The position numbers and the translations under genes are program-made. The notes under the pieces were generated by a model. It saw nothing but the letters and a program-made list of their open reading frames with translations. It searched no databases and had not been told where the DNA came from. Positions 2 to 26,386 of a DNA stretch of 64,000 nucleotides are shown here, piece after piece. The stretch is taken from contig NZ_JAGSYH010000004.1 of assembly GCF_025685685.1 (NCBI RefSeq), positions 806,001-870,000 on the forward strand, written 5' to 3'. This DNA comes from Acidicapsa dinghuensis. GTDB lineage: Bacteria > Acidobacteriota > Terriglobia > Terriglobales > Acidobacteriaceae. Every line of letters starts with the position of its first letter. Position 1 is the stretch's first letter.

Positions 2-1651
2 GAACTCGGTGCTGAACCTGTAGCGGAGGAGGCCCGGGAGCTCGCTAAAAGGGTTTCGGAGGGACGCTTCTATGTTGCCTGTATCGGTCAGTTCAAGAGA
101 GGCAAATCCACTTTGCTCAATGCTCTGGTCGGCTACGCAGTCGTGCCGACCGGTTTTATTCCAGTCACAGCTGTGCCCACGGTTATTCGGTTTGGCGATC
201 AACTCCAAGCTCGCGTTCGCATGAAGGACGGATCCTGGCGCGTGATCGCCATGTCTGACTTGAAGGAATACGTGACCGAGGAGCTAAACCCGGAAAACAG
301 GAAGGCCGTAGAGGGGGCCGAAGTATTCGTCCCAAGCGCCTTATTATCTTCCGGGATGTGTTTCGTGGACACGCCGGGATTGGGTTCAGTCTTTACCGGA
401 AACACCGCAACTACCCAAGCATTCATTCCTCACATCGATGCGGCCCTGGTCGTGGTGGGGGCCGATCCCCCTATTGCAGGCGAAGAGTTGGCGCTCGTAG
501 AGGCGGTCGGCAAGCAGGTTCAAGACTTAATCCTGGTGATCAATAAAGCCGACCGCACCAGCGACGCTGAACGCGCAGCGGCCGCGAAATTCACGCGCGA
601 GATTCTCGAGAAGCGGCTGCAACGATCCATCGGAGAGGTGTTTGAGATCAGTGCAGTTGAGCGGATTGAAAACCGCGGTCCTCTGCGTGACTGGGAGAAG
701 TTGCTGGCGGGCTTCCATCATCTTGTCGAAGACTCTGGCAGAAATCTAGTTCGCGCCGCCTGTGACCGGGGCCTCCAGCGCTTGAGCGAACAACTCCTGG
801 CGATTGCCAGTGAGGATCGCGATGCACTTCAACGCCCGATCGGAGAATCCGAACGACGGATCGCCTTGATGAAAGAAACCATCGGCGAAGCCGAGCGGTC
901 GATGCGAGAGCTTGGTTTCCTCTTTATGGCAGAGCAACAGCGAATCTCGGACTTCTTTGTCGATAGGCGCCACCGGTTTGTCGGTAGCGCCTTGGCGGAA
1001 TCTCAACAGGAATTTGATGAGGAGCTTCGATCCGTTCACGTCGGCTTTGGCCCTAGCTACAGGCGTAGACTAATGCACTTCGCCCAAGAAGTGTCGCGGC
1101 GCAGGGTTACCCCTTGGCTCAAAGTGGAACAAGAGGAAGGAGAACTCCAATATCGGGCCGTTGCCGCTCGATTTGTGGAACTGGGCAACAGCTTCCTGAA
1201 GAAGTTGACCGATGCCGGGCTTACCGAACTGGCCCGGATGCCACACGCGCTTGACGCGGAGAAGGGTCTACGCGTGCGGTCCAGGTTCACTTTTGAGGAC
1301 TTCCTCGGTACAGCAGATCCTCCATCTCCACTACGGTGGCTCGCCGATGTCTTTTTGCCGCTCGTGGGTGGTCGCAAACTAATCACCAACGAAGCTCGGG
1401 CATTTCTGGAGCATCTGTTGGAAACGAACACTTCCCGCGTGCAAAACGACGTCCTGAACCGCATTCAGGAAAGCAGAGATCGCCTAGAAGTCGAGATCCG
1501 CAAACTGCTGCACGAAATCAGTCGCGTCGCGGAGCAGGCGCTTGATCGCGCACGGAAAGTTCGAGAGGAAGGAGCTCCCGCTGTCCGGTCCGCAATTGAA
1601 CGGCTTGCCCGGATAGAACGGGACATTTTGGCGCTCTTGTCGTTCCGTTAG
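2..1651 (+). CDS. Dynamin-like GTPase (5' end cut by window edge)
   Basis: Large GTPase of the dynamin superfamily, expected to bind and remodel membranes. The frame is open from base 2, and the P-loop GQFKRGKST lies at about 86-112, upstream of the first possible in-window start, so the true start is outside the window. G3 is seen as VDTPG followed by LGS (about 365-385) and G4 as NKAD (about 541-552). The middle and C-terminal parts are helical and charged. A hydrophobic patch, LRWLADVFLPLVGG (about 1331-1372), may be a membrane-inserting paddle, and it is followed by a long helix, as in bacterial dynamin-like proteins. About 549 residues are visible. It is followed at 38 bp by a DUF190 gene and then by a second dynamin-like gene, an arrangement that suggests one operon and perhaps a two-subunit GTPase. 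The family is certain; the cellular role is not. Confidence 0.85.
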   Translation, partial: ELGAEPVAEEARELAKRVSEGRFYVACIGQFKRGKSTLLNALVGYAVVPTGFIPVTAVPTVIRFGDQLQARVRMKDGSWRVIAMSDLKEYVTEELNPENRKAVEGAEVFVPSALLSSGMCFVDTPGLGSVFTGNTATTQAFIPHIDAALVVVGADPPIAGEELALVEAVGKQVQDLILVINKADRTSDAERAAAAKFTREILEKRLQRSIGEVFEISAVERIENRGPLRDWEKLLAGFHHLVEDSGRNLVRAACDRGLQRLSEQLLAIASEDRDALQRPIGESERRIALMKETIGEAERSMRELGFLFMAEQQRISDFFVDRRHRFVGSALAESQQEFDEELRSVHVGFGPSYRRRLMHFAQEVSRRRVTPWLKVEQEEGELQYRAVAARFVELGNSFLKKLTDAGLTELARMPHALDAEKGLRVRSRFTFEDFLGTADPPSPLRWLADVFLPLVGGRKLITNEARAFLEHLLETNTSRVQNDVLNRIQESRDRLEVEIRKLLHEISRVAEQALDRARKVREEGAPAVRSAIERLARIERDILALLSFR

Positions 1652-1689
1652 AGAGATATAGAGCGGCAACGACGCGAATGGAGTAGGTC

Positions 1690-2052
1690 ATGAAAGAACA
1701 GTTTCACGCTCGCATGTTACGGATTCACTTTGGCGAAAGCGACAAATGGCAGAATAAGCCCCTCTACGAGGCGATCGTTGCGAAATGCAAAGAGCTGGAG
1801 ATGGCCGGAGCCATCGTCTACCGAGGAATTGAGGGCTATGGCGCCAGTGCGAGAATTCGAAACTCCGGAACTCTCTCGCGGAATGCCCCCATCATGCTCA
1901 GCCTTATCGATAGGAACGAACAGATTCAGAAACTTCTTCCCCATCTCGACGCGATGGTCGAGGAAGGCCTCATCGCGATGTCCCCTGTGGAGGTCTTACG
2001 GTATTCCAGGAAGCCATCGGCTACCTGGTCGCAGGATTTCCCAATCGGTTGA
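1690..2052 (+). CDS. DUF190 family protein (PII-like, linked to fluoride genes)
   Basis: A 120-residue DUF190 protein, a small ferredoxin-like fold related to PII signal proteins and often encoded beside fluoride channels of the CrcB/Fluc family. The family pattern is clear: LRIHFGESDKW near the N-terminus, then PLYEAIV, the glycine-rich GIEGYGAS segment at about 46-53, and a C-terminal EGLIAMSPVEVLRY. GGAGTAGGTC precedes the ATG. It sits between two dynamin-like GTPase genes, 38 bp after the first and 28 bp before the second, so it is probably co-transcribed. A second DUF190 gene lies near 28.4 kb behind the CLC gene, which strengthens the fluoride link. The ligand and partner are unknown; it may act as a regulator of the neighbouring GTPases or of an anion transporter. 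Confidence 0.85.
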   Translation: MKEQFHARMLRIHFGESDKWQNKPLYEAIVAKCKELEMAGAIVYRGIEGYGASARIRNSGTLSRNAPIMLSLIDRNEQIQKLLPHLDAMVEEGLIAMSPVEVLRYSRKPSATWSQDFPIG

Positions 2053-2080
2053 TGCACTCCAGAATATTGAGGGCTACAGC

Positions 2081-3850
2081 ATGACAGGCCATATACACGA
2101 TATCCGCTCATCCCTGCGGACCGATCGACGAGCTCTCCTAAATTCGATTGAGGTTCTTTCCGCTTTTGCCCTCCGCAACAATAGCGACGATCTGAAGACG
2201 TCTTTGACCACACTCTCCGAAAAGTTGAAGAAGGATCGCTTCAATCTTGCGGTTTTGGGACAAATGAAGCGCGGCAAGAGTTCGTTTGTGAATGCGCTCT
2301 TGGGAGCCGAGATCCTGCCGACTGGGATTCTCCCTCTCACATCTGTCATCACCCGAGTAAAGTTCGGCCAAGCGGCAGAAGCCGCCATTCGGTATAAATC
2401 CGGCCACACCGAACCGATCGAGCTTCACAGACTCAGCGAATACATCACAGAAGCTAATAATCCGGGAAACTGGAAGGACGTGGCATCCGCAGAGGTGGCC
2501 TACCCTTCCGATTTCTTGCGGATGGGGATCGATCTCATCGATACTCCGGGAATAGGCTCAACGCATTTGCATAACACCTCGACTACCGAGAGCTATCTGA
2601 ATGAAATCGACGCGGGCATTGTTGTCCTTTCAGTCGACCCGCCTATCACAACCCTTGAGTCCGATTTTGTTCGGCGTATCCGTAAGGATGTACCGAAGCT
2701 CCTCTTCGTCATCAATAAGACCGACATTGTCACTCCCGCGGAGTCAGAGTCCGTTCGTCGATTCCTGGAAGGTGAACTTCGGAATCGCGTAGGTATAGAA
2801 AACCCGGAGCTCTTTCCATTCTCCGCCAGAAGAGCGATGGAGGAGCGGGAATCTCAGAATTCTGAGGGCCTAAGCGGTCTTCGCGAATTGACTAAGCGAT
2901 TGCATCACTTTGCTGCCGAGGAGCGGGAGCACACGTTTCTCCAGTCCGTTGGGCTCGATATCCTCCGTTTGGCCGGCACACTACGCTTCGCGGCTCTCGT
3001 TGGGGAAAGAGCGCGCTCGATGAGTGGCGACGATCTCGAATCCAAGAGGCGTGCTCTTGAATCCGCACTCTCCAGGTGTGAACAGGAATTCGCAGACCTG
3101 CGACACTTGCTTCGACAAGACGTCGCTACTATCGCGAAAACAGTTGAGGAGGATCTTAAGGATCATGTTGCCTCTACGACGCCACGCGCACGCGAGAACT
3201 TGCTGAGGCTCAAGAACGAACATCCAACTGAAACCCGGCACCGACTTGGGAGGCTGTTGGATCAATTCCTCAGAGATCAGGTTGAGCTCTCCTTTGACGG
3301 TTGGTGCGCCCGGGAAGATCAATACGTGCAAACCCGGTTGGGGGAGCTCTCACACAGGTTTATCGAACGAACCAATGCTGTTCTGGTGCGTTTGCAAAAC
3401 GCGGCCGGGGCTCTATTCGATGTTCCCGTTTCGCATATCGGCTTCACTACGTCTCTTACGATGGAAAGCCACCTTCACTATTACACAGAGCCGGTTTTTC
3501 ACTTTCAGCTGGATAAGTTGGTCTTTGCGCTGCCGCGATTCCTGTTGCGCCCCATCGTCTTTCGCCGGATGGGCGCTTTCATTGATCTGGAACTCAGGCG
3601 AAACTCCGGAAGGATACGCGTCGACTACGTCGACCGGCTGGAAAGGTCTGTCGCGACCTTCGAACACGATCTGAAGTCAGCCGTCGGATTCGTCTCCGAT
3701 AATCTTCGCCTCGTGCTGGACCGCCGAGTAGATGAGACAGCTACGACGGGTTCTCCATTGGAGGAACTCGATCCGATCATTGCTCAATGCTCTGCGCTGC
3801 TGTGCGGAGAGAACCTGTCCACCGAATTCTCTGCTACTGGAGCCGGTTAA
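2081..3850 (+). CDS. Dynamin-like GTPase, second of pair
   Basis: A 589-residue dynamin superfamily GTPase. I chose the ATG at 2081, which has GAGGG about 8 bases upstream; the frame is open further upstream but that part overlaps the DUF190 gene. P-loop GQMKRGKSS is at about 60-68, the switch region contains TSVITRVKF, G3 is IDTPGIGS at about 150-157, and G4 is INKTD at about 210. The C-terminal half is a long helical stalk with a hydrophobic stretch (LVFALPRFLLRPIVF, near 3521-3565) that could insert in a membrane. Paired dynamin-like proteins encoded side by side occur in bacteria and can form hetero-oligomers; this pair, interrupted only by DUF190, may do the same. It is 3 bp upstream of a zinc-ribbon/HEAT gene. 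The trigger for expression is not visible because the operon promoter is outside the window. Confidence 0.88.
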   Translation: MTGHIHDIRSSLRTDRRALLNSIEVLSAFALRNNSDDLKTSLTTLSEKLKKDRFNLAVLGQMKRGKSSFVNALLGAEILPTGILPLTSVITRVKFGQAAEAAIRYKSGHTEPIELHRLSEYITEANNPGNWKDVASAEVAYPSDFLRMGIDLIDTPGIGSTHLHNTSTTESYLNEIDAGIVVLSVDPPITTLESDFVRRIRKDVPKLLFVINKTDIVTPAESESVRRFLEGELRNRVGIENPELFPFSARRAMEERESQNSEGLSGLRELTKRLHHFAAEEREHTFLQSVGLDILRLAGTLRFAALVGERARSMSGDDLESKRRALESALSRCEQEFADLRHLLRQDVATIAKTVEEDLKDHVASTTPRARENLLRLKNEHPTETRHRLGRLLDQFLRDQVELSFDGWCAREDQYVQTRLGELSHRFIERTNAVLVRLQNAAGALFDVPVSHIGFTTSLTMESHLHYYTEPVFHFQLDKLVFALPRFLLRPIVFRRMGAFIDLELRRNSGRIRVDYVDRLERSVATFEHDLKSAVGFVSDNLRLVLDRRVDETATTGSPLEELDPIIAQCSALLCGENLSTEFSATGAG

Positions 3851-3853
3851 GCA

Positions 3854-4219
3854 ATGATCGCTTTCTGCACACGCTGCTGGACAGAGATTGACGATCGAAT
3901 CAAAGAGTGCCCGGCCTGTGGCGCCAATCAGGCGTCTGACCTGCGGACCTACGATGAGAAGATTGTCGATGCGCTTCGGCATCCGCTGCCGCAAGCTAGG
4001 GCCCGCATCTGTTGGCTAATCGGTGAAAACAGCATCCGTGGAGCGGTTCCACGTTTGATGGAGATCGCGGAGAGCGATCCGGATATTTATGTGCAGAAGG
4101 CCGCAGTTGAGGCCCTAGGCGCGATCGCTGATCCGCGCTCTGACAGGTTTCTGCGGTCGATGAGCAGAGGGCAGAACCGCTTGCTTGCAGTGGCTGCGAG
4201 TAAGAGCCTGAGAACCTGA
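3854..4219 (+). CDS. Zinc-ribbon / HEAT-repeat small protein
   Basis: A 121-residue protein with an N-terminal zinc ribbon (CTRC at residues 5-8 and CPAC at about 19-22) followed by two or three HEAT-like helical repeats (ALRHPLPQARARICWLIGE, then VPRLMEIAESDPDIYVQKAAV and an ALGAIADPRSDRFL segment). HEAT repeats are protein-binding scaffolds, so this is probably an adaptor. It starts 3 bp after the dynamin gene and is the last gene of that operon. A second HEAT protein precedes the third dynamin gene near 15.6 kb, so the dynamin plus HEAT association is repeated in this window. No catalytic motif is seen. Confidence 0.75.
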   Translation: MIAFCTRCWTEIDDRIKECPACGANQASDLRTYDEKIVDALRHPLPQARARICWLIGENSIRGAVPRLMEIAESDPDIYVQKAAVEALGAIADPRSDRFLRSMSRGQNRLLAVAASKSLRT

Positions 4220-4352: not shown

Positions 4353-6044
4353 TTATCGTGTCTCAATTATTTTCGCAAACTCCTTGCCGCGATGCGAAGG
4401 GTAGTTTTCGGACGTTGGGGCCTCCGCCACACTCTGGTCAGAACCCAAGTGCTCCCGGCTCAAGTTCGAAGCCGACCTTCCTGAGATACCTAGCCGATCT
4501 CGACTTGGATTAATGGAGCCGTCTGTAGTTTGCAAGAGTGAATGCTGATGATCCGAGAATATCTCGCGATACAGGTCCTCACCGTAGCTCGTTTCGAGGG
4601 GCTCACGCTCGACCAGCTTGAAAGTCCGCGTGCCGTCGGGAAGCCGTTCGGCACGGAGAAATAACCCGTCGTCAGATCTTGTCGTAAAGAAGCGGTGTGC
4701 AAATTCGTAGAGATGGGTCACGAAAAACACCTTGACCCTTTTCTCTAGCATGGCTCCCACGATCTGTGTTGCAATCTCCGATCCCTCTCGTTCATTCGTC
4801 GCCGCGAATGATTCATTCAGAAGCAGTATCGAGTTCGGTAGGATGTGATCTGCGATATCGCTCATTCTGGCAAGCTCCTCGTCAAGCTTTCCGCTCTTCA
4901 TAGTCGCGTCCTCTTCTCGTTTGTAGTGAGCGAAGAGTGCGGGACATAGTTCAGCTTCAAAGCTTTCCGCACCAACGAACATGCCGCTCTGCATCATGAG
5001 CTGTGCAAGACCAATACTCCGCAAGAAGCTAGACTTGCCGCCTTGGTTTGCACCTGTAATGACCACAGCACTCTTCTCTTTGACGTTGGCATCATTGCCA
5101 ACGACGCGCCGTTCTAAGTGAAGAGCCAGGCAAACGTCATAGAGACCGGTAAAGCGATGCTTCCGCTCTGTGGAAGGAGCTGGAACCGGAAGGCAAGCGG
5201 GCTCCTGTTTGCCTGATAGTTTTTGGTGAAGGTTCAGGCTACCGATATAGAACGCCAACTCCGTCTTCAACGCCTTAAAGAAGTTGAGGACGTGGCCGGC
5301 TGATTGCGCAAGCGTAATCGCGACTCTGCAGATTCCACGTTGGCGAATGGACCCTACGATGCGCGCGCCGCCTTCGTCACGAGGGTCGAGACGGAATGTA
5401 TAACCGGGAGAAGCTTTGGTGAGTATTCGCCGGAACCAGTTGGGTTCTCTTTTTGGCGGCCTGGCTAGTGTATAGTTCGTACCCTCGTTGTTCTCACCCA
5501 GTTCCGCAGTCAGCAGCGTTCCATTCCGGAACTTCATGTCGTTGAGGTACTGGTCGATCGTAGCCAGGTACTCGTCGCCTAATTCATTTCTCAGCATCGC
5601 GAACAGTGCCAGGAAGGCCCTGGAGCGAAATTGGTCGCCAGCGCCTTCCGCGAGCTGCCGAAGCTTTCGAAGCGAATTTCTCAGAAATTCGAGAAGTGAA
5701 ATCGCGCCGAAAAGAACAGAGTCAGGGTACTGACTCGACAAATCCCACCACATCCGCTTCGTATTGTCCGTAGCCTCGACAGTCAGCGTGTAGAGAGCAC
5801 GTATTTGATCCGGATTCGCAAGGCAGTCGCTGATCACCTCCTGCCTGTACAGGATTGTGCTGACGTCGTTTTGAAATCCCGAGAAAAGAGCCGCGCGACT
5901 GACTTCGTAAACGAACCGGTCTCCATCCGCCATGGCATCCAGCAGCGTATTCAACTCGAGATCCTGCGTAAGCTGCGGCTCGCCCCATGGCAATGGGAAT
6001 TGAGCGTCGAACGGTCGATCGGGATGCATGAGTAGTGTTTTCAT
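4353..6044 (-). CDS. MutS-family ATPase lacking mismatch-binding domain (gene 2 of pair)
   Basis: A 563-residue protein with the MutS core lever and ATPase domains only. Walker A GANQGGKSS is at about 331-339. There follow KREEDATMKSGKLDEEL, the Walker B segment SILLLNES at about 405-412 (Asn in the place of the usual Asp) and FVTHLYEF at about 441-448, all in MutS order. An N-terminal YRQEVISDCL at about 66-75 matches the start of the MutS core. The mismatch-recognition and connector domains of MutS (usually about 850 residues) are absent, as in MutS-related proteins of unknown role. The ATG overlaps the stop of the upstream partner by 4 bases, so the two are translationally coupled and may form a heterodimer. 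The pair follows a fluoride riboswitch. Confidence 0.85.
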   Translation of the reverse strand: MKTLLMHPDRPFDAQFPLPWGEPQLTQDLELNTLLDAMADGDRFVYEVSRAALFSGFQNDVSTILYRQEVISDCLANPDQIRALYTLTVEATDNTKRMWWDLSSQYPDSVLFGAISLLEFLRNSLRKLRQLAEGAGDQFRSRAFLALFAMLRNELGDEYLATIDQYLNDMKFRNGTLLTAELGENNEGTNYTLARPPKREPNWFRRILTKASPGYTFRLDPRDEGGARIVGSIRQRGICRVAITLAQSAGHVLNFFKALKTELAFYIGSLNLHQKLSGKQEPACLPVPAPSTERKHRFTGLYDVCLALHLERRVVGNDANVKEKSAVVITGANQGGKSSFLRSIGLAQLMMQSGMFVGAESFEAELCPALFAHYKREEDATMKSGKLDEELARMSDIADHILPNSILLLNESFAATNEREGSEIATQIVGAMLEKRVKVFFVTHLYEFAHRFFTTRSDDGLFLRAERLPDGTRTFKLVEREPLETSYGEDLYREIFSDHQHSLLQTTDGSINPSRDRLGISGRSASNLSREHLGSDQSVAEAPTSENYPSHRGKEFAKIIETR

Positions 6045-7573
6045 CCCTTGATGCGCTCCATTAGCAGGTCATACGTGACGCGATGCTTTTCTGCGATAGC
6101 CAACGCATACGCGAGGCCGTCCGCCGACTTTCGTTCCAGCTTGAATGTCCGCACGGCGGGATTGATAGGATCGACAGTGCTGACAAAGCTCACCGTCTTT
6201 TCGTCAAAAGATGCCAATTCGTCGAGGAACGTAACGCATACGCAGAGCACATCGAGCGTTGAAAGTTGATCAACGACCTTTTTGCCGAGAAAGATGGCGT
6301 CCTGCAAAGTCGTCGAAGAGAAGATCTCGTTCATGATGACGATGCTTTGGGATGTTGCGTGCAGAAGGATTTCGTGGATTCGAAGCAGATCGTCTTGGAG
6401 CTTGCCACGAAGGCTGCTGATATCTTCTTCCCGTTCGAAATGCGTGAAGAGTTGATCGAACTTGAACAGCTGTACATTCCTCCCTGGAACGGGCAGACCC
6501 AAAACCGCTAGATAGTGCAATTGGCCGAAGGTTCTGGCGAACGTCGTCTTACCACCGTGATTTGGCCCGGATACGACGAGAATCCTCTCAGCACCCGAAA
6601 GCGAAAAATCATTGCAGACGACAGCGGCCTTCTCATCCAGCAGCTTACCGGCGAGTACGAGATCGAAGGTCTCCTGCGCGTTGACTTCCTTCGAAGTCGT
6701 TGAAAGCGTCGGAAGAGTGAATTTCAGACCAGCGCCGCGTAGCTTTCCGACGTAGTTGAGGAAGGCCAAATAGAACTGAATTTCGCGATCAAAGCGGGAA
6801 ATCGTGGAATCGATAAAATCGACACGGCTTGAGCAAAACGCATCTAGAGCGTCAAACGTCCCCGGATCAAACTTCGCAATCCCCTCAAGGACCTGTGCCT
6901 GAATATGGTTGACCGGGTCGATCTCCCGCACAGTCACGCGATACCGCTGATCTGGTTCACGTCGAAACTTCTCAAATGTGTCCTCAACTGCGATGCTGTA
7001 GTCGCTCTCATCTTCCGGGATCCGAACGGTAACGGCGTCTCCGCGTAGCAACAGGCAGTATTGAATCTTCGCTAGACTCGTCTTCAAGTTGCTTATCTCA
7101 TTTACAAGCCCACGAAAATGAGGCGACGAAACGTAGTTGGCAAGATAGCCGCGAAAGGCTCGCATGCCCGTCGATTCAAGCGCTCGTGCGCAAATATCGA
7201 GTGCCAGTCGCTCAACCGCGCTGCAATAGATGTCAACAGCGGTAAGGAAACCCTTCTGAATGGCGTATTTGTAGAATGCCTTCTTCCCCTGCTCGAGGCG
7301 TTGACGCATTAGTCGCATCTGCCCGGCGAATGACTTTATCGACGCAAGAACCGACTGATTTTCGAGATCACGTACAACCTCCTGTCGGTAGAGAATTGAA
7401 TCGAGATCGGGCAACTGGCTGTAATAGAAAGTCGCGAGGTCATATTCCTGAAAATCGCTGGTGATCTTGCTCACAAATTGATCGAGATTCAGATCTCCGA
7501 AGAATGCAGGCTCTTCCTCAGAGGTCTTCGCGGCTTCGTTCGTCTCTTTGAACAGTATGCTGCGAAAGGCCAT
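6041..7573 (-). CDS. MutS-family ATPase lacking mismatch-binding domain (gene 1 of pair)
   Basis: A 510-residue MutS-like P-loop ATPase. The ATG at 7573 is chosen because AAGGT precedes it and the recognisable protein starts there; the longer frame has no family match upstream. YRQEVVRDL lies near residue 62, Walker A SGPNHGGKTT at about 335-344, then FEREEDISSLRGKLQDDL, and Walker B IVIMNE at about 408-413 with a conserved Asn-Glu. No mismatch-binding domain. It is the first gene of a two-gene operon whose leader holds a fluoride riboswitch (7736-7808). Linkage of the crcB RNA motif with mutS-like genes is known from earlier comparative work, so this is a second instance of a real pattern. 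The substrate is unknown; DNA repair is only one option. Confidence 0.85.
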   Translation of the reverse strand: MAFRSILFKETNEAAKTSEEEPAFFGDLNLDQFVSKITSDFQEYDLATFYYSQLPDLDSILYRQEVVRDLENQSVLASIKSFAGQMRLMRQRLEQGKKAFYKYAIQKGFLTAVDIYCSAVERLALDICARALESTGMRAFRGYLANYVSSPHFRGLVNEISNLKTSLAKIQYCLLLRGDAVTVRIPEDESDYSIAVEDTFEKFRREPDQRYRVTVREIDPVNHIQAQVLEGIAKFDPGTFDALDAFCSSRVDFIDSTISRFDREIQFYLAFLNYVGKLRGAGLKFTLPTLSTTSKEVNAQETFDLVLAGKLLDEKAAVVCNDFSLSGAERILVVSGPNHGGKTTFARTFGQLHYLAVLGLPVPGRNVQLFKFDQLFTHFEREEDISSLRGKLQDDLLRIHEILLHATSQSIVIMNEIFSSTTLQDAIFLGKKVVDQLSTLDVLCVCVTFLDELASFDEKTVSFVSTVDPINPAVRTFKLERKSADGLAYALAIAEKHRVTYDLLMERIKG

Positions 7574-7735
7574 AGTGCATACCTTGGATACAACTGAGTC
7601 AAGGATGAGGAGTTGAACGCCGACAGCTACCGTTGCTCCGAGACATCTCAATCGGAACGAGGTAGCCAGAACCCGCAATTCTTGAAGACGGACCCCTCCT
7701 CACGTACCGCGATTTCAGTTTTGGTAGGGAATGCA

Positions 7736-7808
7736 GATTCCTACCAGACCGGTAGGAATCATCAGCGACTCCGTTTCGGAGCGCGGTTCAAGGCGGATTC
7801 CTTCGCCT
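7736..7808 (-). promoter_or_regulatory. Fluoride (crcB) riboswitch for the MutS-like pair
   Basis: On the minus strand, GGCGAAGGAATCCGCC opens the aptamer. It is followed by TTGAACCGC, a stem closed by GAAA, then CGCTGATGATTCCTAC, the pattern of fluoride riboswitches. The aptamer runs into a strong hairpin (GATTCCTACC with GGTAGGAATC) that can act as the expression platform. It lies about 160 bases upstream of the first MutS-like start. Confidence 0.88.
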
Positions 7809-8130
7809 TCATTAGTTTACCACCCACTTCGTCCGCCGCATCGATTTGGAGGGTCTCGTTGCTCGGTGTCTCCTCTTGTGCGTAAGGGCTTCGTTTTCGT
7901 GGGGCCCTTACGGGATCAGATGGAGGAGGCTCCACGTTCACCTTGCCCTTCCAAACCGTAACGGACTTGACTAGTCGAAGTTGCAGCTTGCCGGCTTTGC
8001 GCAGCCTCATGTGACCTGAACCGTGGTCCTCGTAATGGTCATACAGCGTCCGGCCATCCCGCAGGATTATGCGCAACGGTGTTCCGCGTTCGAAATGAGT
8101 ATGGGGAGTTCTCAAACAAGGCAAACCCAT
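7762..8130 (-). CDS. Small basic hypothetical protein, doubtful
   Basis: A 122-residue frame. Residues 17-63 (TPLRIILRDGRTLYDHYED onward to VTVWKGK) read like a compact beta-barrel of the Sm/Hfq sort, which is only an impression; the rest is proline-rich and basic. Its 3' end overlaps the riboswitch aptamer, and the stop is supplied by the aptamer's TGA. It could be a real gene upstream of the MutS-like operon or a chance frame. No good ribosome binding site is seen. Confidence 0.35.
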   Translation of the reverse strand: MGLPCLRTPHTHFERGTPLRIILRDGRTLYDHYEDHGSGHMRLRKAGKLQLRLVKSVTVWKGKVNVEPPPSDPVRAPRKRSPYAQEETPSNETLQIDAADEVGGKLMKAKESALNRAPKRSR

Positions 8131-8171
8131 GACATGGGAGACGCGTCAAGTATAGACTGATAGCAATTGAA

Positions 8172-8251
8172 GGGTGATGAAGTCCACCTTTAACCGCCGA
8201 TCTTGAAACCGAAGTCTGGCTGATGACTCCTCGAACTCACTTTCTGAGGAG
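8172..8251 (+). promoter_or_regulatory. Fluoride riboswitch, translation-type
   Basis: GGTGATGAAGTCCACC, then TTTAACCGCC, a small stem and GGCTGATGACTCCTC: a fluoride aptamer with covarying P1 (GGTG/CACC instead of GGCG/CGCC). CTCCTC can pair with GAGGAG at 8246-8251, which would also serve as the ribosome binding site of the small frame starting at 8259, so control is probably at translation. Confidence 0.85.
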
Positions 8252-9592: not shown

Positions 9593-10753
9593 TCAGCTCT
9601 CCCAACTCAACCCAGGCCTGCCAAAGTGGCCATAATTTGTCGTTTGGCGATAGATCGGCGCAAGCAGGCCTAGTCTCTCGATGATTGCCGAGGGACGGAA
9701 ATCGAATCGATATGCGAATTCGAGAGCCTCTCGGCTGTCTCCCGTGCCGAAAGTCTCAACCTTGAGGGAGATCGGCTTAGCGATGCCTATCGCATAGGCA
9801 ACTTGGATCTCAACAGCTGCTGCGAGACCCTGTTTGATGATCTGTCGCGCGACATACCGGCAGAAATACGCGGCGCTGCGATCCACTTTCGAGGGGTCTT
9901 TGCCACTGAAGGCGCCTCCACCATGACGCGCTGCGCCACCGTAGGTATCGGCGATAATCTTTCGGCCTGTTACTCCGCAATCCGCCGAAGGCCCGCCGAG
10001 AACGAAACTCCCTGTGGGATTGACGATGAACTGTATTTTGCTTTGGAACCACTCGCCAAGGACTCGGGGTCCGAGGTCACCTCGCACGTAATCAGCAATC
10101 TCGGCTCGCTCTATATCCGCACTGTGCTGCGTCGAGACGAGAACATCGGTCACTGCGGTTGGCTTGTTGTGTTCGTAGAGGACAGAAACCTGCGACTTTG
10201 CATCCGGACGAAGCCATGGATAATTTCCGGATCTCCTGTCGTCGGCGAGACCTCTAGTCAAGCGATGCGCAAGAAAGATCGGCAAGGGCATCAATCCGGG
10301 CGTCTCGCTGCAAGCATAGCCGAACATGATTCCCTGATCGCCGGCGCCCTGTTCGTGATTCGCGTTGGTGTCAACATCGACACCCTGCGCAATATCAGAA
10401 GACTGCCTCGAGATGAGCTTCAACACTTTCACTCCGTCCGCATTAAAAGCAGCGCCCGAGTCTGTATAGCCGATTTGGTGTATCGCTTCACGCACCACCG
10501 CATCGTGGTCGACATGACCTCGGGAGCTGATCTCACCTCCGAGAACGACTGTGTCCTCTTTGCAGAGCACTTCACAAGCAACCCTTGACGTGGGATCTTG
10601 TTCAAGGTAGGAGTCGAGAATGGAATCTGCAATGAAGTCACACACCTTGTCAGGGTGACCTTCGGATACGGATTCGGAGGTGAACGTGTAAGTTGAGGAT
10701 TTTGGAAGAGAAGAAGGGGAAACCGCGGTTGGTCCTGGAAGAACTGTTGCCAT
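9593..10753 (-). CDS. metK: S-adenosylmethionine synthetase
   Basis: Makes SAM from methionine and ATP. The protein is about 386 residues, the usual length. The family motifs are in order: SESVSEGHPDK near the N-terminus, GEISSRGHVD, then GAGDQGIMFGYA (about 125-136), and GGGAFSGKDPSKVDRS (about 262-277) with metal and phosphate ligands. I choose the ATG at 10753 (MATVLPG), which has GGAG 10 bases upstream; ATG at 10780 is in frame but less well placed. The leader holds a SAM-riboswitch-like structure. It lies in the fluoride island, so a second, housekeeping metK is probably elsewhere. It supplies the cofactor used by Cfa encoded in the same island, an inferred link. Confidence 0.93.
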   Translation of the reverse strand: MATVLPGPTAVSPSSLPKSSTYTFTSESVSEGHPDKVCDFIADSILDSYLEQDPTSRVACEVLCKEDTVVLGGEISSRGHVDHDAVVREAIHQIGYTDSGAAFNADGVKVLKLISRQSSDIAQGVDVDTNANHEQGAGDQGIMFGYACSETPGLMPLPIFLAHRLTRGLADDRRSGNYPWLRPDAKSQVSVLYEHNKPTAVTDVLVSTQHSADIERAEIADYVRGDLGPRVLGEWFQSKIQFIVNPTGSFVLGGPSADCGVTGRKIIADTYGGAARHGGGAFSGKDPSKVDRSAAYFCRYVARQIIKQGLAAAVEIQVAYAIGIAKPISLKVETFGTGDSREALEFAYRFDFRPSAIIERLGLLAPIYRQTTNYGHFGRPGLSWES

Positions 10754-10856
10754 TGACGCACGCTCCATTGTTCGCAGCATGCATCAGGAGACCCTATAAG
10801 CCCACAGTCGAGCGAACCCTCTAGGGTGGAGACTCTGTTCGGAAAATCCATTCCGC

Positions 10857-10936
10857 GCATCGGGCTTTCGCCCAGGCACCGTACGTCTCCAAGACCGGTT
10901 GCCGGACTCACCTGTCGGTTGAGTCACTCCTGATGC
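10857..10936 (-). promoter_or_regulatory. Candidate SAM riboswitch (SAM-I/IV clan-like) for metK
   Basis: On the minus strand, GCATC (10936-10932) pairs with GATGC (10861-10857) as P1. Inside are a hairpin GACTCA..TGAGTC, the clan sequence CCGGCAACC, and GGTGCC before the hairpin GGGCGAAAGCCC. The 10 bases GCATCAGGAG of P1 are exactly complementary to CTCCTGATGC at 10790-10781, next to the start region, a plausible switching partner. The class assignment is uncertain. Confidence 0.5.
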
Positions 10937-10975
10937 TTCGCATTAAGTCTACGAGTCGCTTGGAACCGCTGTCAA

Positions 10976-11771: not shown

Positions 11772-11801
11772 TTGCGGTGCTGAAGATCTTTGTGCTAAAC
11801 C
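11772..11801 (+). promoter_or_regulatory. Probable promoter of the uspA riboswitch transcript
   Basis: TTGCGG, 18-bp spacer, TAAACC, ending 6 bp before the fluoride aptamer begins. Confidence 0.4.
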
Positions 11802-11807
11802 TTAATT

Positions 11808-11883
11808 GGCGAAGGAATCCGCCCTCAAGCGCCTACCGAAATGGAACGGCTGATGACTCCTACAGTGATGTAGGGGTTTTTTG
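11808..11883 (+). promoter_or_regulatory. Fluoride riboswitch with terminator, upstream of uspA
   Basis: GGCGAAGGAATCCGCC, CTCAAGCGCC, a GAAA-closed stem and GGCTGATGACTCCTAC form the aptamer. The last bases pair into CCTACA-GTGA-TGTAGG followed by GGTTTTTT, a clear intrinsic terminator. Control is therefore probably by transcription termination relieved by fluoride. Confidence 0.92.
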
Positions 11884-11903: not shown

Positions 11904-12335
11904 GTGCCGGATTGTGAGATCCACAAGATTCTTGCTGCCGACGATGGCACTCCCGAGGGTGAGCGCGCAGCCTATACCGCGATGGAACTCGGGGGCCGGC
12001 TAAAGGCGGATGTTCTATTGCTCGGTGTTGTCCCTCCCCAGAACATCGATCCGATGATGGGACCGCCGGGTTACAACCCGGCGGTCTTTCGGCGCAAGCT
12101 GGAGGATCGTCTCTGGCGGTTCAGGAAGTTTGGAGAATCACTCGGAATGGACGTGGATGTGGATGTTGTGGACGGTAGGCCAGCTGATCAAATACGAAGA
12201 CGCGCCGCCGCCGAACATGTCGACCTCATTATCGTCGGACGGCATCGCAAATCTCCTCTGATGCGTTTCTTCGTCGGATCGACTTCGGAGACTGTCGTCC
12301 GGGTAGCCCATTGTTCGGTGATGGTCGCTCGCTGA
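11904..12335 (+). CDS. Universal stress protein (UspA family)
   Basis: A 143-residue single-domain Usp. It starts at GTG 11904 with GGAGAG 9 bases upstream. The N-terminal strand KILAADDGTPEGERAAY carries the conserved Asp after the first beta strand, and the C-terminal IIVGRHRKSPLMRFFVGSTS is the nucleotide-binding glycine/serine signature. It stands alone behind a terminator-type fluoride riboswitch. UspA genes are known fluoride-riboswitch targets; the protein probably binds ATP and acts as a stress regulator, but the exact role under fluoride is not known. Confidence 0.92.
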   Translation: MPDCEIHKILAADDGTPEGERAAYTAMELGGRLKADVLLLGVVPPQNIDPMMGPPGYNPAVFRRKLEDRLWRFRKFGESLGMDVDVDVVDGRPADQIRRRAAAEHVDLIIVGRHRKSPLMRFFVGSTSETVVRVAHCSVMVAR

Positions 12336-12369: not shown

Positions 12370-12399
12370 TTGCCACTGTGAAGCAGACAATGGCATGAT
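12370..12399 (+). promoter_or_regulatory. Probable promoter of the ppa riboswitch transcript
   Basis: TTGCCA, 18-bp spacer, CATGAT, 7 bp before the aptamer start. Confidence 0.4.
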
Positions 12400-12406
12400 G
12401 GTCAGT

Positions 12407-12472
12407 GGCGATGGAATCCGCCTTTAACTGCCCCTGAAACAGGCGGCTAATGACTCCTACGAAGCGTAGGAG
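12407..12472 (+). promoter_or_regulatory. Fluoride riboswitch upstream of inorganic pyrophosphatase
   Basis: GGCGATGGAATCCGCC, TTTAACTGCC, a CCTGAAACAGG stem and GGCTAATGACTCCTAC. One core base differs from its siblings (CTAATG instead of CTGATG). CTCCTAC pairs with GTAGGAG (12466-12472) as the expression hairpin. Confidence 0.87.
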
Positions 12473-12517
12473 TGCGCCACCTGCTCCTGTGCTCTCTCGT
12501 TGCAAAGGAGCAGAACA

Positions 12518-13045
12518 ATGGACTACCTCAACCTTCCGATCGGCAAGCAGTCTCCCGACATTGTTGCAGTCGTCGTCGAGATTCCCCTCGATGGCACCAA
12601 CAAGTACGAGTACGACAAACAGTTGCATGTCTTCAAGCTTGACCGCACCCTGCATTCGCCAGTGCACTACCCGGGTGATTACGGCTTCATTCCACAAACA
12701 CTGGCTGAGGACGGCGATCCCCTCGACATCTTGATCCTGGGAGACAGTGAAACCTTTCCAGGATGCCTGCTGAACGCGCGCCCTATCGGCCTCTTTGAGA
12801 TGCTGGATCAGGGCATACCAGACGAGAAGGTCGTCGCCTACGGAACAGGTAACCCCCGATTCCAGGATGTGGAGAGCTATACCCAAGTTCAACCCCATGT
12901 TTTGCGTGAGATCGAGCACTTTTTCTCGGTCTATAAAGACCTGGAGGGCAAGCGAACCAAGGCTCTTGGCTGGAAAGGTCGCGAGGCGGCGCATCAGGTG
13001 ATCCGTTCGAGTCACGAGCGATACATGGAACGGAAAACTGGCTAG
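12518..13045 (+). CDS. ppa: Inorganic pyrophosphatase (family I)
   Basis: Hydrolyses pyrophosphate to phosphate using Mg2+. The protein is 175 residues, the size of bacterial family I enzymes. AAAGGAG is 7 bases before the ATG at 12518. It shows KYEYDK (about 29-34), YPGDYGFIP (about 54-62) and the metal-binding signature DGDPLDIL (about 68-75). The C-terminal EHFFSVYKDLEGKRTKALGW is typical. Fluoride is a classic tight inhibitor of family I pyrophosphatases, so induction by a fluoride riboswitch makes sense as compensation or as a resistant paralogue. An AAA-type ATPase gene follows 27 bp downstream. Confidence 0.95.
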   Translation: MDYLNLPIGKQSPDIVAVVVEIPLDGTNKYEYDKQLHVFKLDRTLHSPVHYPGDYGFIPQTLAEDGDPLDILILGDSETFPGCLLNARPIGLFEMLDQGIPDEKVVAYGTGNPRFQDVESYTQVQPHVLREIEHFFSVYKDLEGKRTKALGWKGREAAHQVIRSSHERYMERKTG

Positions 13046-13829: not shown

Positions 13830-15530
13830 TCAGAGAATCGTGTCAACGGACCAGGGCGCGTTCACGCTACGATGACCTGCCAAGAGTAAAAGCGCCACTT
13901 CGGAAGCTCTGCGCTCTTCTTCGCTTGTCAAATATCGCCGCAGTGCGTCGTGCCTGAGAGCATAACGCTGCAAGTCTTCCGCGGTTCTCTCGAGCAGGTA
14001 GGCGTGCGCGTGAAGTAATGTTTGGGCCGCCTCCCCAGGGCCCAAAGCCGCAGTGACCGCCGCTAGGTGAGGAAGGCAACACGCGCCCAACCCACCCCTT
14101 CCAGCTGACGCTACCTCATGAGCTGCAGTGGCTGCCGATCGGATCGCCCTTCTCTCGGATCCAACACGTACTTCACAGACTTTACAAGTTTTCGCTGTGG
14201 CGAGCAGATCTTTCATTTCGGATGATAGTGAGCCTGCGTCCTGCCCGGAGACAGCTATGTGTTCGAGTTCGCCGGCAATCCGATGAACGAGTTGGGGATA
14301 AGAAGTGCAAACGCCATACGGCGACGAAATATTCTCGTACTGCCATGTGTGCAGAGGGCAAAATCCGCCTCTCACGGCATGTTCCCGCTGCGCTTCAGGA
14401 TTGATGGTCATCTCGTATTGGTACTTGCTGAGAAATTGGAAGATGTCATTGAGTACAGCGCCACAAATTCTGCATCCCGCGCGCCGTTCAAACTGAAGTG
14501 AGACGGAGCTCTTGGGGGTTTCTCCCTCGATAGAGGATCCTTGTCTCTCTGCCGGCACGACGTCGGTTTCCCTAAGGGCCCGCAACCGTTCCATGAGCGG
14601 CATGAATGGATCGTCTAGCCCAGGCTTTTGCATTCGTTGCGACCACTGCGCAAGTAATGTCCCTGTGCGGGAATAAAGATTTGCAAGAAAGGCCTGAGCG
14701 CGTTCCTCGGTGAGGAATCTCAGCAATTCGTCTTCAAATGATTGGAGGCCGCTTGCTTCGAGGGCCGACTTATCAGTCGCCAACTTTGCCTGCAACGCCT
14801 CACGCGCGGAAAGTGAAAAGATCTGAGGTGCTTCGGAGAATGCAAACCGCTTCAGCCGTTCAGCAATAAACGTGAAAGCCTGCTTCCGATCTTCTTCGCG
14901 AACGGTGTCTTGCTTGTTCACCACCACAAAGAGCCGCTTATTGGTGACTCGTATCCGATGGAGAATGCGATCTTCCTCTTCGGATAGAGGGCTATCGTAG
15001 CTCGTCACAAGAACAAAGGCGTCTGCTTCCGGAAGGAATCGTTCCGTAGTCTCGGTGTTTTCGACAATGGCCGACCCAAGTCCTGGACTGTCCACGAAGA
15101 AGAAGCCACGTCGAAGAATTTCGACCGGCAACTCGATTTCTGCATAGGCAAGATTCTTGATGTTGCCTGGGTTAGACTGTTGTGTCACATACTCCCCTAG
15201 TTGAGCCAGTGGCACATCGCGCGTCAGTCCGCGGCCATTGAAATGGAGGACAACCTGCTTTCTGCTTCCGTACCGCACAGTTGTGATGACGGATGTGAGC
15301 GGGACAATTCCTGTTGGGAGTAGATCGCCTCCAAGAATTGCGTTCATCAATGTCGACTTGCCACGACTGAATCTGCCTACAACCAGCAAGTTGAACCGAT
15401 CTTCTGCGAGCCGAGTGAGAAGATCGCGGCATTCTTGGGCCAGATCCTGATCCTTGGTATCGACAGCCTGAGCCGACCGGATGATATCGGCGATGCCAAA
15501 TTTCTCTTGCTCGTAACCTTTAAGGTCCAT
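13830..15530 (-). CDS. Dynamin-like GTPase with cysteine-rich C-terminal domain
   Basis: A 566-residue protein. I chose ATG 15530 with GGAGG just upstream; the longer frame would overlap the HEAT gene. The GTPase domain has P-loop GRFSRGKST (about 52-60), TSVITTVRYG, G3 VDSPGLGS (about 144-151) and G4 VNKQD (about 205-209). After about residue 350 the dynamin stalk is replaced by a domain with CRIC, GFCPLHTW, CKVC and ACCLPHL, a Cys/His pattern resembling DUF6062-type domains and probably binding metal. No hydrophobic paddle is visible. It is the last gene of a four-gene operon (metallophosphoesterase, Cfa, HEAT protein, this gene) behind a fluoride riboswitch. Confidence 0.85.
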   Translation of the reverse strand: MDLKGYEQEKFGIADIIRSAQAVDTKDQDLAQECRDLLTRLAEDRFNLLVVGRFSRGKSTLMNAILGGDLLPTGIVPLTSVITTVRYGSRKQVVLHFNGRGLTRDVPLAQLGEYVTQQSNPGNIKNLAYAEIELPVEILRRGFFFVDSPGLGSAIVENTETTERFLPEADAFVLVTSYDSPLSEEEDRILHRIRVTNKRLFVVVNKQDTVREEDRKQAFTFIAERLKRFAFSEAPQIFSLSAREALQAKLATDKSALEASGLQSFEDELLRFLTEERAQAFLANLYSRTGTLLAQWSQRMQKPGLDDPFMPLMERLRALRETDVVPAERQGSSIEGETPKSSVSLQFERRAGCRICGAVLNDIFQFLSKYQYEMTINPEAQREHAVRGGFCPLHTWQYENISSPYGVCTSYPQLVHRIAGELEHIAVSGQDAGSLSSEMKDLLATAKTCKVCEVRVGSERRAIRSAATAAHEVASAGRGGLGACCLPHLAAVTAALGPGEAAQTLLHAHAYLLERTAEDLQRYALRHDALRRYLTSEEERRASEVALLLLAGHRSVNAPWSVDTIL

Positions 15531-15574
15531 ATGCCTCCAGTTCGCGTTGACCTGACCCGAAAAAACTTCAAGCT

Positions 15575-16537
15575 TTATGAGCGTGAAGGCGATCTCGTAT
15601 TGAGCGCCCCACCCAGAGCGTGATTGAGGAGTCTCCAAAATGGAGACAGCCAATGAGGATTCTCTCCGCGATTTTGCCTCTCCTTCGCGATCTCCATGGC
15701 GACCCAATGAGAAGGCCCCGAGTGTTTATCCAGCAACTCCTCGATCTCCTCTTCCTCAAGAGAGTTCACATGATCTGCAATCTTGAATAGAGTCCTTATG
15801 ATTGCGGGCCAATCGGCTTCGCCGGTCTCGACGAACCCGATCTTGGCCACGGCAACTACCGTTGCCGCATCGTCCACGAGGAGGTACCCACGCAGATCCG
15901 GCCAATCACTTGGGGCGACTCCAACTTCACTCAGGAGTTGTACGGTGGCACGCCGCCGGCGGACCGCCCCAGGACCATCGAGAGTCACGCCCGTCAATCC
16001 GCGCACGGACAAAATCCCGAACTGACGCACGGCCTCGGGAAGCTTGCGGAGACTCTGCATCGCATCTTCGCGGCAGAGATCGTCCTCAAGAACCTCGAAC
16101 AGGAGTGGCACTGCCTCGGGACGGTGAAACTCACCTAAGGCGACGACAAGCCCGCCCGTGGCACGATCCCAAGCCGCTTCGAGCAATACTCGAAAAGTGT
16201 CGGTCGATGGATATCTCGACAACTGACGAGCTGCTTCACTACGAACTCCGTCTTCGGCGAAGAGTACCGCGCTATCAATTGGGCGTGTGTATTGCTTGAA
16301 ATAGGCAATCAAAGTCGCAGATGCGCCAAGTTCACCAAGCGCACGGACCGCTCGACAGCGCGGCAGCGCGATTGTTCGGGGAGGGCGCTTCAGGAGGAAT
16401 GCGGAGAGGGCCGGAATTGCTTTTGTGCCACACCTAACCAGCATGTCGACCGCAAGATCGCCATCTTGCAATGAACCGAGAGATTCGACAAGATTCTCGA
16501 TCTGCTCTTCGGACATCTGGCTCAGAGGCGCGGTCAC
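15575..16537 (-). CDS. HEAT-repeat protein
   Basis: About 320 residues of alpha-helical repeats (CGTKAIPALSAFLLKRP, CRAVRALGELGASATLIAYF, GVRSEAARQL, LVVALGEFHRPEAVPLLFEV, REDAMQSLRKLP), a scaffold fold like PBS-lyase HEAT repeats. I prefer GTG 16537, which overlaps the cfa stop as GTGA and has GGAG 9 bases upstream; ATG 16516 is the alternative. It lies 44 bp before the dynamin-like gene. Together with the zinc-ribbon/HEAT gene at 3.9 kb this makes two independent dynamin plus HEAT neighbourhoods. No catalytic motif. Confidence 0.78.
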   Translation of the reverse strand: MTAPLSQMSEEQIENLVESLGSLQDGDLAVDMLVRCGTKAIPALSAFLLKRPPRTIALPRCRAVRALGELGASATLIAYFKQYTRPIDSAVLFAEDGVRSEAARQLSRYPSTDTFRVLLEAAWDRATGGLVVALGEFHRPEAVPLLFEVLEDDLCREDAMQSLRKLPEAVRQFGILSVRGLTGVTLDGPGAVRRRRATVQLLSEVGVAPSDWPDLRGYLLVDDAATVVAVAKIGFVETGEADWPAIIRTLFKIADHVNSLEEEEIEELLDKHSGPSHWVAMEIAKERQNRGENPHWLSPFWRLLNHALGGALNTRSPSRS

Positions 16538-17814: not shown

Positions 17815-17854
17815 ATATCTTTCCTCCAAGGCGCAATGCGAACAGCCAGCCTCG

Positions 17855-18565: not shown

Positions 18566-18651
18566 AAAAACCTCCGTTCGAACAGCGCACGCCCTCGTGC
18601 GCGAGCAAATCGACCGGTCCAGATTTTGGCAAGGTTTTCGTGCGGGCGGGA

Positions 18652-18739
18652 GACCTCCCGACGATACCTCGTCAGGGGTCATCATCCGGTTCGTCCATCA
18701 AGTATGGACACCCGGCGGTTCAGGCGAACCCCTTCGCCC
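18652..18739 (-). promoter_or_regulatory. Fluoride riboswitch for the metallophosphoesterase-cfa-HEAT-dynamin operon
   Basis: Minus strand: GGGCGAAGGGGTTCGCC, TGAACCGCC, a long variable stem, then CGGATGATGACCCCTGACG. The 3' strand continues into CGTCGGGAGG, a hairpin that can mask or expose a GGGAGG sequence. A small hairpin (GCATC..GATGC) precedes the aptamer, as it also does before smc. Confidence 0.88.
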
Positions 18740-18771
18740 TACGCATCTAGTACTACTGATGCACCTTTAAG

Positions 18772-22719: not shown

Positions 22720-22809
22720 GGAGACTCCCGACGAAAACCTCGCCAGGGGTCATCATCCGCCCACCCAACAATCAGGATGGAACAGCGTTTTGGGCGAACC
22801 CCTTCGCCC
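22720..22809 (-). promoter_or_regulatory. Fluoride riboswitch upstream of smc
   Basis: Minus strand GGGCGAAGGGGTTCGCC, AAAACGC, a variable stem, GCGGATGATGACCCCTGGCG, then CGTCGGGAG as the expression hairpin. A GCATC..GATGC hairpin precedes it. The leader to the smc ATG is about 190 bases with no other frame on this strand. Confidence 0.87.
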
Positions 22810-24849: not shown

Positions 24850-24875
24850 CTGTATCAGGTTATTTTCAGCAACCC

Positions 24876-26379: not shown

Positions 26380-26386
26380 GCATCTA

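Follow-up and report, generated by a model that had tools for sequence, protein, structure and literature searches.

Fluoride riboswitches and dynamin-like GTPases lie side by side in Acidobacteriota: a possible membrane arm of fluoride resistance

At the start of a 64,000-nucleotide stretch of the Acidicapsa dinghuensis genome (Acidobacteriota; contig NZ_JAGSYH010000004.1, positions 806,001-870,000; this whole stretch is called the window below, and all coordinates are window positions) lie the last genes of an operon in which three dynamin-like GTPases, a CrcB/Fluc channel and DUF190 proteins stand behind a fluoride riboswitch. A link of these dynamins to fluoride is well supported by the genome evidence; the best explanation that we can suggest for it is a remodelling of the membrane when fluoride causes stress. 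We consider it somewhat probable that this is a fluoride-resistance operon with a membrane arm, in which the dynamins reshape or seal the membrane. The gene order, the riboswitches, the protein families, their recurrence in other genomes and the predicted folds of two dynamins, dynB and dynD, carry the argument, and from them we infer induction by fluoride, an action on the membrane, hetero-oligomers of the dynamins and a role of DUF190.

The operon is a run of ten genes on one strand, which begins 5.7 kb upstream of the window, in DNA of the same contig (L003), behind a riboswitch of family RF01734 (37.4 bits, gathering score 34) located 277 nt before the first gene. The order is enolase, dynA (700 amino acids), the CrcB/Fluc channel, a Cys-rich protein (188 amino acids), a double DUF190 protein, a single DUF190 protein, dynB, another DUF190 protein, dynC and a zinc-ribbon/HEAT protein. 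Since the ten genes share a strand and are separated by gaps of -1 to 90 bases (90, 3, -1, 10, 14, 5, 38, 28 and 3 in order), one transcript is likely. CrcB (95.4 bits, cut-off 32.9) places a member of the fluoride exporter family inside the unit. A first-pass annotation of the window had seen a four-gene operon at 2-4219, had linked it to fluoride and had suggested looking for crcB aptamers upstream; the four genes are all where it placed them and such an aptamer stands at the operon head, while the unit proved to be larger, these being its last four genes, with six more upstream outside the window:

2 to 1651, + strand: dynB, a Dynamin_N protein of 587 amino acids (96.9 bits, cut-off 27), cut by the window start, with its true ATG at window -112
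1690 to 2052, + strand: DUF190 protein, the third DUF190 gene of the operon (PF02641, 105.3 bits, cut-off 23.4)
2081 to 3850, + strand: dynC, a Dynamin_N protein of 589 amino acids from the ATG at 2081 (101 bits; start codon checked)
3854 to 4219, + strand: zinc-ribbon/HEAT-repeat protein, the last gene of the operon (HEAT_2, 48 bits, cut-off 27.7; N-terminal zinc ribbon at 20.2 bits, below the Pfam cut-off of 25)

The surroundings of the operon carry fluoride signals too. RF01734 has 14 matches in the genome, 12 of them over the cut-off, and 13 of the 14 fall within 133 kb of this contig, a fluoride island; the one outside stands before a second crcB gene. Among six Dynamin_N matches in the genome, four exceed 80 bits (dynA 80.2, dynB 96.9, dynC 101 and dynD, a fourth dynamin in a neighbouring run, 94, all above the Pfam cut-off), and all four are inside the island; the remaining two are partial P-loop matches.

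The association reaches far beyond this genome. In a draw of 247 Acidobacteriota genomes we searched for DUF190, for the dynamin profile A1 and for RF01734, with 5 dynamin candidates scored in each genome and 20 for the riboswitch, where the filters were stricter, and matches may be missing on both sides. DUF190 was matched in 82 genomes, the dynamin profile in 42 and RF01734 in 86 (78 over the cut-off). Dynamin matches were divided into strong and weak at 150 bits, a line drawn after seeing the list, which has a gap from 160.3 to 104.9 bits, and their proximity was counted against the riboswitch and DUF190 rows of genomes with dynamin matches. Thirty-seven of the 40 strong matches (in 32 genomes) lie within 10 kb of a fluoride riboswitch; it is upstream on the same strand in 34, and within 1 kb in 23. 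None of the 17 weak matches (in 13 genomes) has a riboswitch within 10 kb. With our own genome left out, the three counts become 33, 30 and 23 of 36 strong matches. CrcB, DUF190 or enolase was found in 16 of 30 fetched strong-dynamin stretches versus 0 of 8 weak ones. R2, a riboswitch model built from 26 riboswitches of the present data and hence leaning towards them, gave matches (E <=0.01) in 29 of the 30 strong stretches, L167 having none, and in one of the 8 weak ones (L171), where a score of 17.7 bits was taken as noise. Rfam's own model backs the riboswitch results for our own genome, for its relatives, for the phylum and for the plasmid of Lichenicola described below.

The same contrast bears on the idea that the dynamins form an anti-phage or general defence module which merely happens to be located in a fluoride island. 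The LeoA and LeoBC profiles of PADLOC (a library without a stated cut-off) do match all four dynamins at 17-53 bits, but these matches are weak only, and the same-strand riboswitches within 1 kb of strong dynamins, with none near the weak ones, as well as the recurring labelled neighbours, which are fluoride genes (neighbours were not screened for defence genes), disfavour this idea so far that we regard it as hardly probable at all.

In a tree of 71 GTPase domains, 58 fluoride-linked sequences are divided from 13 others (the label was assigned by stretch and includes L167) by a single branch, which occurs in 90% of 200 bootstrap trees and has a support of 88/80, below the mark for firm support. 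Types A, B and D each group together, and type C is scattered. This topology is of importance for the suggestion that the dynamins serve as spares for an enzyme which fluoride inhibits, since together with magnesium or aluminium it can mimic phosphate in GTPase active sites. Such logic is described for enolase and pyrophosphatase in operons of this kind (PMC5533749, PMC11139923), and the G motifs of our dynamins are intact: the G-x4-GKS, D-x-P-G and K-x-D columns are invariant in 11 aligned dynamins, and the second Thr of the P-x-T-x3-T switch is nearly so. However, the fluoride-linked dynamins separate from the others in the tree, unlike recent housekeeping duplicates, and all strong dynamins of the genome lie inside the island, for which reason we set the spare-copy explanation low, as a quite improbable one.

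Neighbourhoods of dynB give a closer view. Homologues of dynB occur in 7 of 61 genomes searched, our own included. Fluoride riboswitches are present in the fetched dynB stretch of 5 of the 6 other genomes, and the sixth, L051, where the contig starts at the dynamin, is without one; counted by stretch, RF01734 exceeds its cut-off in 7 of 8 (L046, L047, L048, L049, L050, L054 and L055), L051 again having none. A congeneric genome carries the series enolase, a dynD-type dynamin, dynA, CrcB, double DUF190, DUF190 and dynC in this order. A scan of named genomes with dynB then yielded 78 loci, all from metagenome-assembled genomes and 77 of them labelled Acidobacteriota; one contig, L102, is binned as Parasulfuritortus, and its dynB is 83% identical to the acidobacterial one, so it is likely misbinned. 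Fifty of the 78 loci (47 genomes) entered one genome-level count of riboswitch matches, in which 47 of 47 had a match and 46 had one over the cut-off.

Where at least 8 kb of upstream sequence is available (38 loci), a same-strand riboswitch lies within 8 kb upstream of dynB in every case, 38 of 38, and the company consists of another dynamin (29), DUF190 (27), CrcB (21), enolase (14) and pyrophosphatase (6); these labels come from small purpose-built profiles at >40 bits, and faint ones may be wrong. With short contigs included, the 78 loci have an upstream riboswitch in 55 cases, any riboswitch within 8 kb in 63, another dynamin in 55, DUF190 in 50 and CrcB in 39. In six loci (L060, L071, L074, L092, L097 and L112) the riboswitch stands no more than 151 bp before the dynB open reading frame itself. 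A chance neighbourhood of dynamins and riboswitches is ruled out by this recurrence together with the contrast between strong and weak dynamins.

The 130 riboswitches of these loci have as their nearest labelled gene starting within 700 bp dynA, or its N-terminal region alone (33), pyrophosphatase (14), enolase (8), dynB (6) or other labels (19); an unlabelled reading frame follows in 49 and none in 1, and the ranking is biased because the loci were selected by dynB. The largest unlabelled groups are a membrane family behind 16 riboswitches (the one tested member is a Na_H_Exchanger) and homologues, at 50-69% identity, of a phosphoesterase of the window behind 10 (R2 model matches). A region similar to the N-terminal part of dynA is also seen as a separate short gene, often just before dynB or crcB (L046 9412-9798, L047 7557-8081, also L058, L061, L085 and others).

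Conserved linkage of the channel with the dynamins could be explained otherwise, if fluoride-induced dynamins were GTP-driven scaffolds which cluster or stabilise Fluc channels, with DUF190 as a clamp and no membrane repair. The arrangement gives this some ground: crcB, both DUF190 forms, dynA and dynB share one strand in 31 of the 78 loci, and a DUF190 gene ends no more than 300 bp upstream of the dynB reading frame in 44. Many linked dynamins, on the other hand, have no crcB nearby, since it was found in 10 of the 30 phylum-wide strong stretches and, as given above, in 21 of the 38 well-flanked loci. We consider the scaffold explanation unlikely.

The preferred reading, a membrane arm of fluoride resistance, draws on the family and the predicted structure of the dynamins. 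In the AlphaFold model of dynB (mean pLDDT 81.8) one can distinguish a GTPase head, a stalk of long helices (269-315, 318-380, 389-442 and 496-560) and a tip; there, all 35 aligned homologues share P478, S480 and D487, while 34, 32 and 33 of them have P481, R483 and A486, respectively. The leading fold matches of the model include a mitofusin-1 construct (Z 25.0 over 315 residues), IniA (6J72; Z 24.0 and a root-mean-square deviation of 9.0 over 500 residues, at 18% identity) and the bacterial dynamin-like protein BDLP of Nostoc (2J68; Z 17.9 over 492 residues), so dynB is predicted to fold like IniA and BDLP. IniA, one of the two top matches and the longest of the leading ones, is an isoniazid-inducible bacterial dynamin that is induced by cell-wall drugs and has been proposed to serve membrane maintenance; the text available to us (PMC6715688) mentions no riboswitch or fluoride channel, in contrast to the riboswitch and CrcB found here. 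DLP1 and DLP2 of Campylobacter jejuni (5OWV) are encoded by neighbouring genes of one operon and form a membrane-tethering hetero-oligomer (PMC6104087). Adjoining dynamin genes are a likeness to our operon, and the profile match to a dynamin from here has an E of 5.1e-24; that source names two dynamins and, in the portion available, no fluoride genes, whereas three dynamins share the operon here and a fourth is close by. BDLP (2J69) is a GTPase with a helical stalk and a membrane tip. To our knowledge, it has no fluoride context. That the set is a membrane-remodelling machine, as the first-pass annotation had proposed, is thus suggested by homology and by the predicted fold, which by themselves carry this part of the proposal.

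A further thought is that the dynamins would themselves be effectors that respond to fluoride, if GDP together with magnesium fluoride or aluminium fluoride held them on the membrane in an assembled, oligomeric form. Metal fluorides generally mimic the transition state in GTPases of this kind, and one of the matched structures, 5gom, shows Mitofusin-1 in a 'transition-like state'. The conserved G motifs of our dynamins are ordinary, however, with nothing that sets their active sites apart, and we take direct action to be very improbable.

The dynD model shows a Cys-rich helical domain in place of the continuation of the stalk. An alignment of 16 separate Cys-rich proteins with two C-terminal parts of dynD has 12 invariant positions, 8 of them Cys or His, with CxxC...CxxH occurring twice, and 6 of these 18 sequences match DUF6062. 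Because of this natural fusion, the Cys-rich protein, which the main operon encodes on its own, appears from sequence to be tied to the dynamins. A cyclopropane synthetase of the CMAS family precedes dynD on the same strand and is found with dynD again in 6 further loci; its position, and the riboswitches ahead of the phosphoesterase that opens this run, would fit a membrane-tightening response.

We propose the following course of events. Fluoride would enter the cell as hydrogen fluoride (HF) and, with magnesium, bind the crcB-type riboswitch, which in the bound state would let transcription run into enolase, CrcB/Fluc, the DUF190 proteins and several dynamins. The channel would export fluoride, and extra enolase, with pyrophosphatase from elsewhere in the island, would make up for the enzymes that are inhibited. 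The most likely place of assembly for dynamins A, B and C, and for D from the neighbouring run with the cyclopropane synthetase, is the cytoplasmic membrane on its inner face, which dynB at least would contact through its stalk tip; using GTP, they may clamp, reshape or seal membrane that is damaged or depolarised by HF entry, as has been proposed for IniA under cell-wall drugs. The PII-like DUF190 proteins probably form small rings, which may read the state of the cell and bind the channel or the dynamins. Induction by fluoride would follow from the riboswitch class (PMC11139923) and the membrane step from the dynamin family, by way of IniA and the C. jejuni pair; and as HF is described to cross the membrane and acidify the cell (PMC11139923), a membrane-tightening response would make sense.

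We may even suggest, in a tentative manner and with considerable doubt, that these proteins are a distinct dynamin family dedicated to fluoride, present in several types in Acidobacteriota and, by transfer, in at least one alphaproteobacterium, and that they form one membrane machine with DUF190 rings and Fluc. The rings would sense the state of the cell, would gate the channel or serve as its dock, and would act as the switch of dynamin hetero-oligomers, whose task would be to close the membrane again to leaking HF and protons; cyclopropane modification of its lipids would assist in this.

A number of observations weigh against the membrane reading or its generality. The tip of dynB is placed at low confidence (pLDDT 55-61 for residues 451-480), and the mean hydropathy of any 19 consecutive residues in the four dynamins is at most 1.61, for which reasons the membrane contact of the dynamins rests on analogy. 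The riboswitch at the operon head scores 3.4 bits above the gathering score. Three of the 40 strong dynamins (G297 C647, G114 C108 and G259 C35, the first two near a contig end) are without a riboswitch within 10 kb, and the 78 dynB loci are not independent, coming partly from one site or one genome. DUF190 lies within 10 kb of only 15 of the 40 strong dynamins. The system is also patchily distributed, as 86 of the 247 genomes have a riboswitch match against 32 with a strong dynamin, and 54 of the 61 genomes searched among relatives are without a dynB homologue; fluoride resistance does not need these dynamins. The orientation of the riboswitch on the Lichenicola plasmid, given below, belongs to the same side.

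DUF190 deserves separate consideration, as the first-pass annotation had assigned it the control of the dynamins as a PII-like sensor and had pointed to its place between two of them. The operon proteins are clear members of the family (PF02641 at 105.3, 106.1 and 198.3 bits), and the relation to PII holds: the double protein matches PF00543 at 38.9 bits (E 1.1e-9, cut-off 25), one single protein scores 22.3 bits, and for the other no match was listed. By sequence, the closest solved relatives of a single operon DUF190 are TM0021 (1O51, E 1.3e-18) and PH1503 (2DCL, E 2.4e-23). These DUF190/UPF0166 proteins are single domains, whereas the operon has a tandem double-domain form and two single forms; the two single genes look like duplicates, being 80% identical in DNA over 294 bases. 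The order dynA-DUF190-dynB occurs in 37 of the 78 loci, and the exact dynB-DUF190-dynC sandwich is limited to the window and L062 (1 of 78 loci, many of which end early downstream). No DUF190 was found in the available sequence of the six loci with dynB directly behind a riboswitch, and this, together with the 15 of 40 in the phylum, means that DUF190 is not a general requirement; its role as an obligate partner of the dynamins is ruled out, and control by DUF190 is plausible but not general. DUF190 is itself widespread and often fluoride-linked without dynamins: a riboswitch is no more than 6 kb away from 41 of 99 DUF190 matches, which belong to 32 of 82 genomes (counted on the riboswitch rows of genomes with DUF190).

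Outside Acidobacteriota the search covered annotated plasmids, and three plasmid dynamin neighbourhoods were scanned for riboswitches. On a plasmid of Lichenicola cladoniae (Alphaproteobacteria) a 59.7-bit fluoride riboswitch precedes a CrcB-Usp fusion (L134 7470-8699), beside which stands a divergent dynamin with 38.4% identity to dynD over 95% of the query. As this riboswitch faces crcB and points away from the dynamin, it supports the neighbourhood and not direct control of that dynamin by fluoride. The neighbourhood survey proposed for the first-pass annotation thus found the association recurring in many Acidobacteriota families and, as a neighbourhood, on an alphaproteobacterial plasmid, and the fluoride link drawn there is strongly supported at the genome level by the riboswitches at the operon head and around it, by CrcB, enolase and pyrophosphatase and by the recurrence.

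No riboswitch was found in the fetched plasmid dynamin stretches of Anabaena and Nostoc; the Nostoc dynamin, another one than BDLP, has none within 6 kb. On the plasmid of Anabaena sp. 90 (L135 5896-9944) two adjoining dynamin genes are followed by cutA, of the PII-like group, without a fluoride riboswitch; dynamins may more widely have PII-like proteins as neighbours. The plasmid DUF190 regions of Methylocystis and Granulicella have no dynamin among the listed genes. In Granulicella tundricola (L137 9001-15214) DUF190 heads a run of RND efflux genes, so it also occurs outside fluoride contexts.

By its gene content the operon appears to belong with the fluoride-riboswitch resistance operons and its GTPases with the bacterial dynamins. 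A close known relative is the cluster of Enterobacter cloacae FRM (ppaC, uspA, eno, gpmA, crcB, orf5249), which likewise unites RF01734, CrcB, enolase, pyrophosphatase and Usp and whose expression fluoride induces in that strain (PMC5533749); the five genes named in the text of that paper seen by us include neither a dynamin nor a HEAT or DUF190 protein, and our operon has all three. The joining of dynamins with fluoride riboswitches is the part that we have not found described. In the open-access literature, searches returned no paper linking dynamin to a fluoride riboswitch, nor one on fluoride, dynamin and Acidobacteria, and among the matches listed none joined a dynamin family protein, fluoride and a riboswitch. 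By title, crcB with dynamin gave only cancer, nanotube and connexin topics; DUF190 with fluoride gave only unrelated papers, and bacterial dynamin-like with DUF190 gave none. Neither dynamin nor DUF190 occurs in the main text of Weinberg et al. 2010.

Work on fluoride has mostly dealt with export, with the balance of pH and ions and with spare copies of inhibited enzymes. A review points out that exporters do not account for the large differences in tolerance, and it also describes fluoride-linked changes in genes concerned with the structure and integrity of the membrane (PMC11139923). The neighbourhood described here points to a membrane arm of fluoride resistance in Acidobacteriota of soil and peat. 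Bacterial dynamins often have, as far as we know, no clear physiological trigger. In the present case a whole set of them seems to be under the control of one ion, acting through one RNA switch, which would provide a cheap and titratable signal for dynamin function and makes induction, localisation, GTPase activity and phenotype testable. DUF190 would gain a testable partner, and DUF6062-like Cys-rich proteins would be tied to dynamins through the natural fusion.

The remaining fluoride-related features of the window are as follows:

4353 to 6044, - strand: MutS domain V protein A (PF00488, 68.1 bits), which comes second after the riboswitch at 7746-7816
6041 to 7678, - strand: MutS domain V protein B, first gene behind the same riboswitch (PF00488, 56.9 bits)
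7746 to 7816, - strand: fluoride riboswitch ahead of the MutS-like pair (RF01734, 42.2 bits, gathering 34)
8164 to 8239, + strand: fluoride riboswitch (RF01734, 41.4 bits)
11799 to 11869, + strand: fluoride riboswitch (RF01734, 41.5 bits) ahead of a universal stress protein gene (11904-12335, +; Usp 86.5 bits)
12398 to 12466, + strand: fluoride riboswitch (RF01734, 52.5 bits) ahead of an inorganic pyrophosphatase gene (12500-13045, +; PF00719, 184.3 bits)
13830 to 15707, - strand: dynD, dynamin GTPase fused to a Cys-rich domain (limits of the open reading frame; likely start 15530, set by comparison with homologues; Dynamin_N 94 bits)
15575 to 18685, - strand: HEAT protein, CMAS-family cyclopropane synthetase and metallophosphoesterase, ahead of dynD
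18666 to 18747, - strand: weak fluoride-riboswitch match (32.0 bits, below gathering 34) ahead of the phosphoesterase-CMAS-HEAT-dynD run
24775 to 24858, - strand: fluoride riboswitch (RF01734, 35.5 bits) ahead of a galactarate/altronate dehydratase-like gene (23011-24657, -; by Pfam)
26378 to 26448, + strand: fluoride riboswitch (RF01734, 39.5 bits), followed by the genes of a CLC-family protein (26619-28409) and of a DUF190 protein (28406-28933; both by Pfam)

Enolase, pyrophosphatase, Usp and CrcB are known company of the fluoride riboswitch (PMC5533749, PMC11139923), and mutS is named for the fluoride-riboswitch motif in PMC2864571. For the CLC-family protein the label of a CLC-F fluoride antiporter was rejected, as the signatures GNNLI/GMGLI, GREGT/V and GEVTP, as given in PMC11139923, are all absent. 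An SMC-family protein is encoded at 18836-22531 (- strand), and the sequence upstream of it, at 22737-22817, matches a riboswitch very weakly (23.3 bits); a SAM-I/IV riboswitch match at 10824-10941 (- strand; 41.5 bits, gathering 41.1) lies ahead of an S-adenosylmethionine synthetase gene (9593-10780, - strand).

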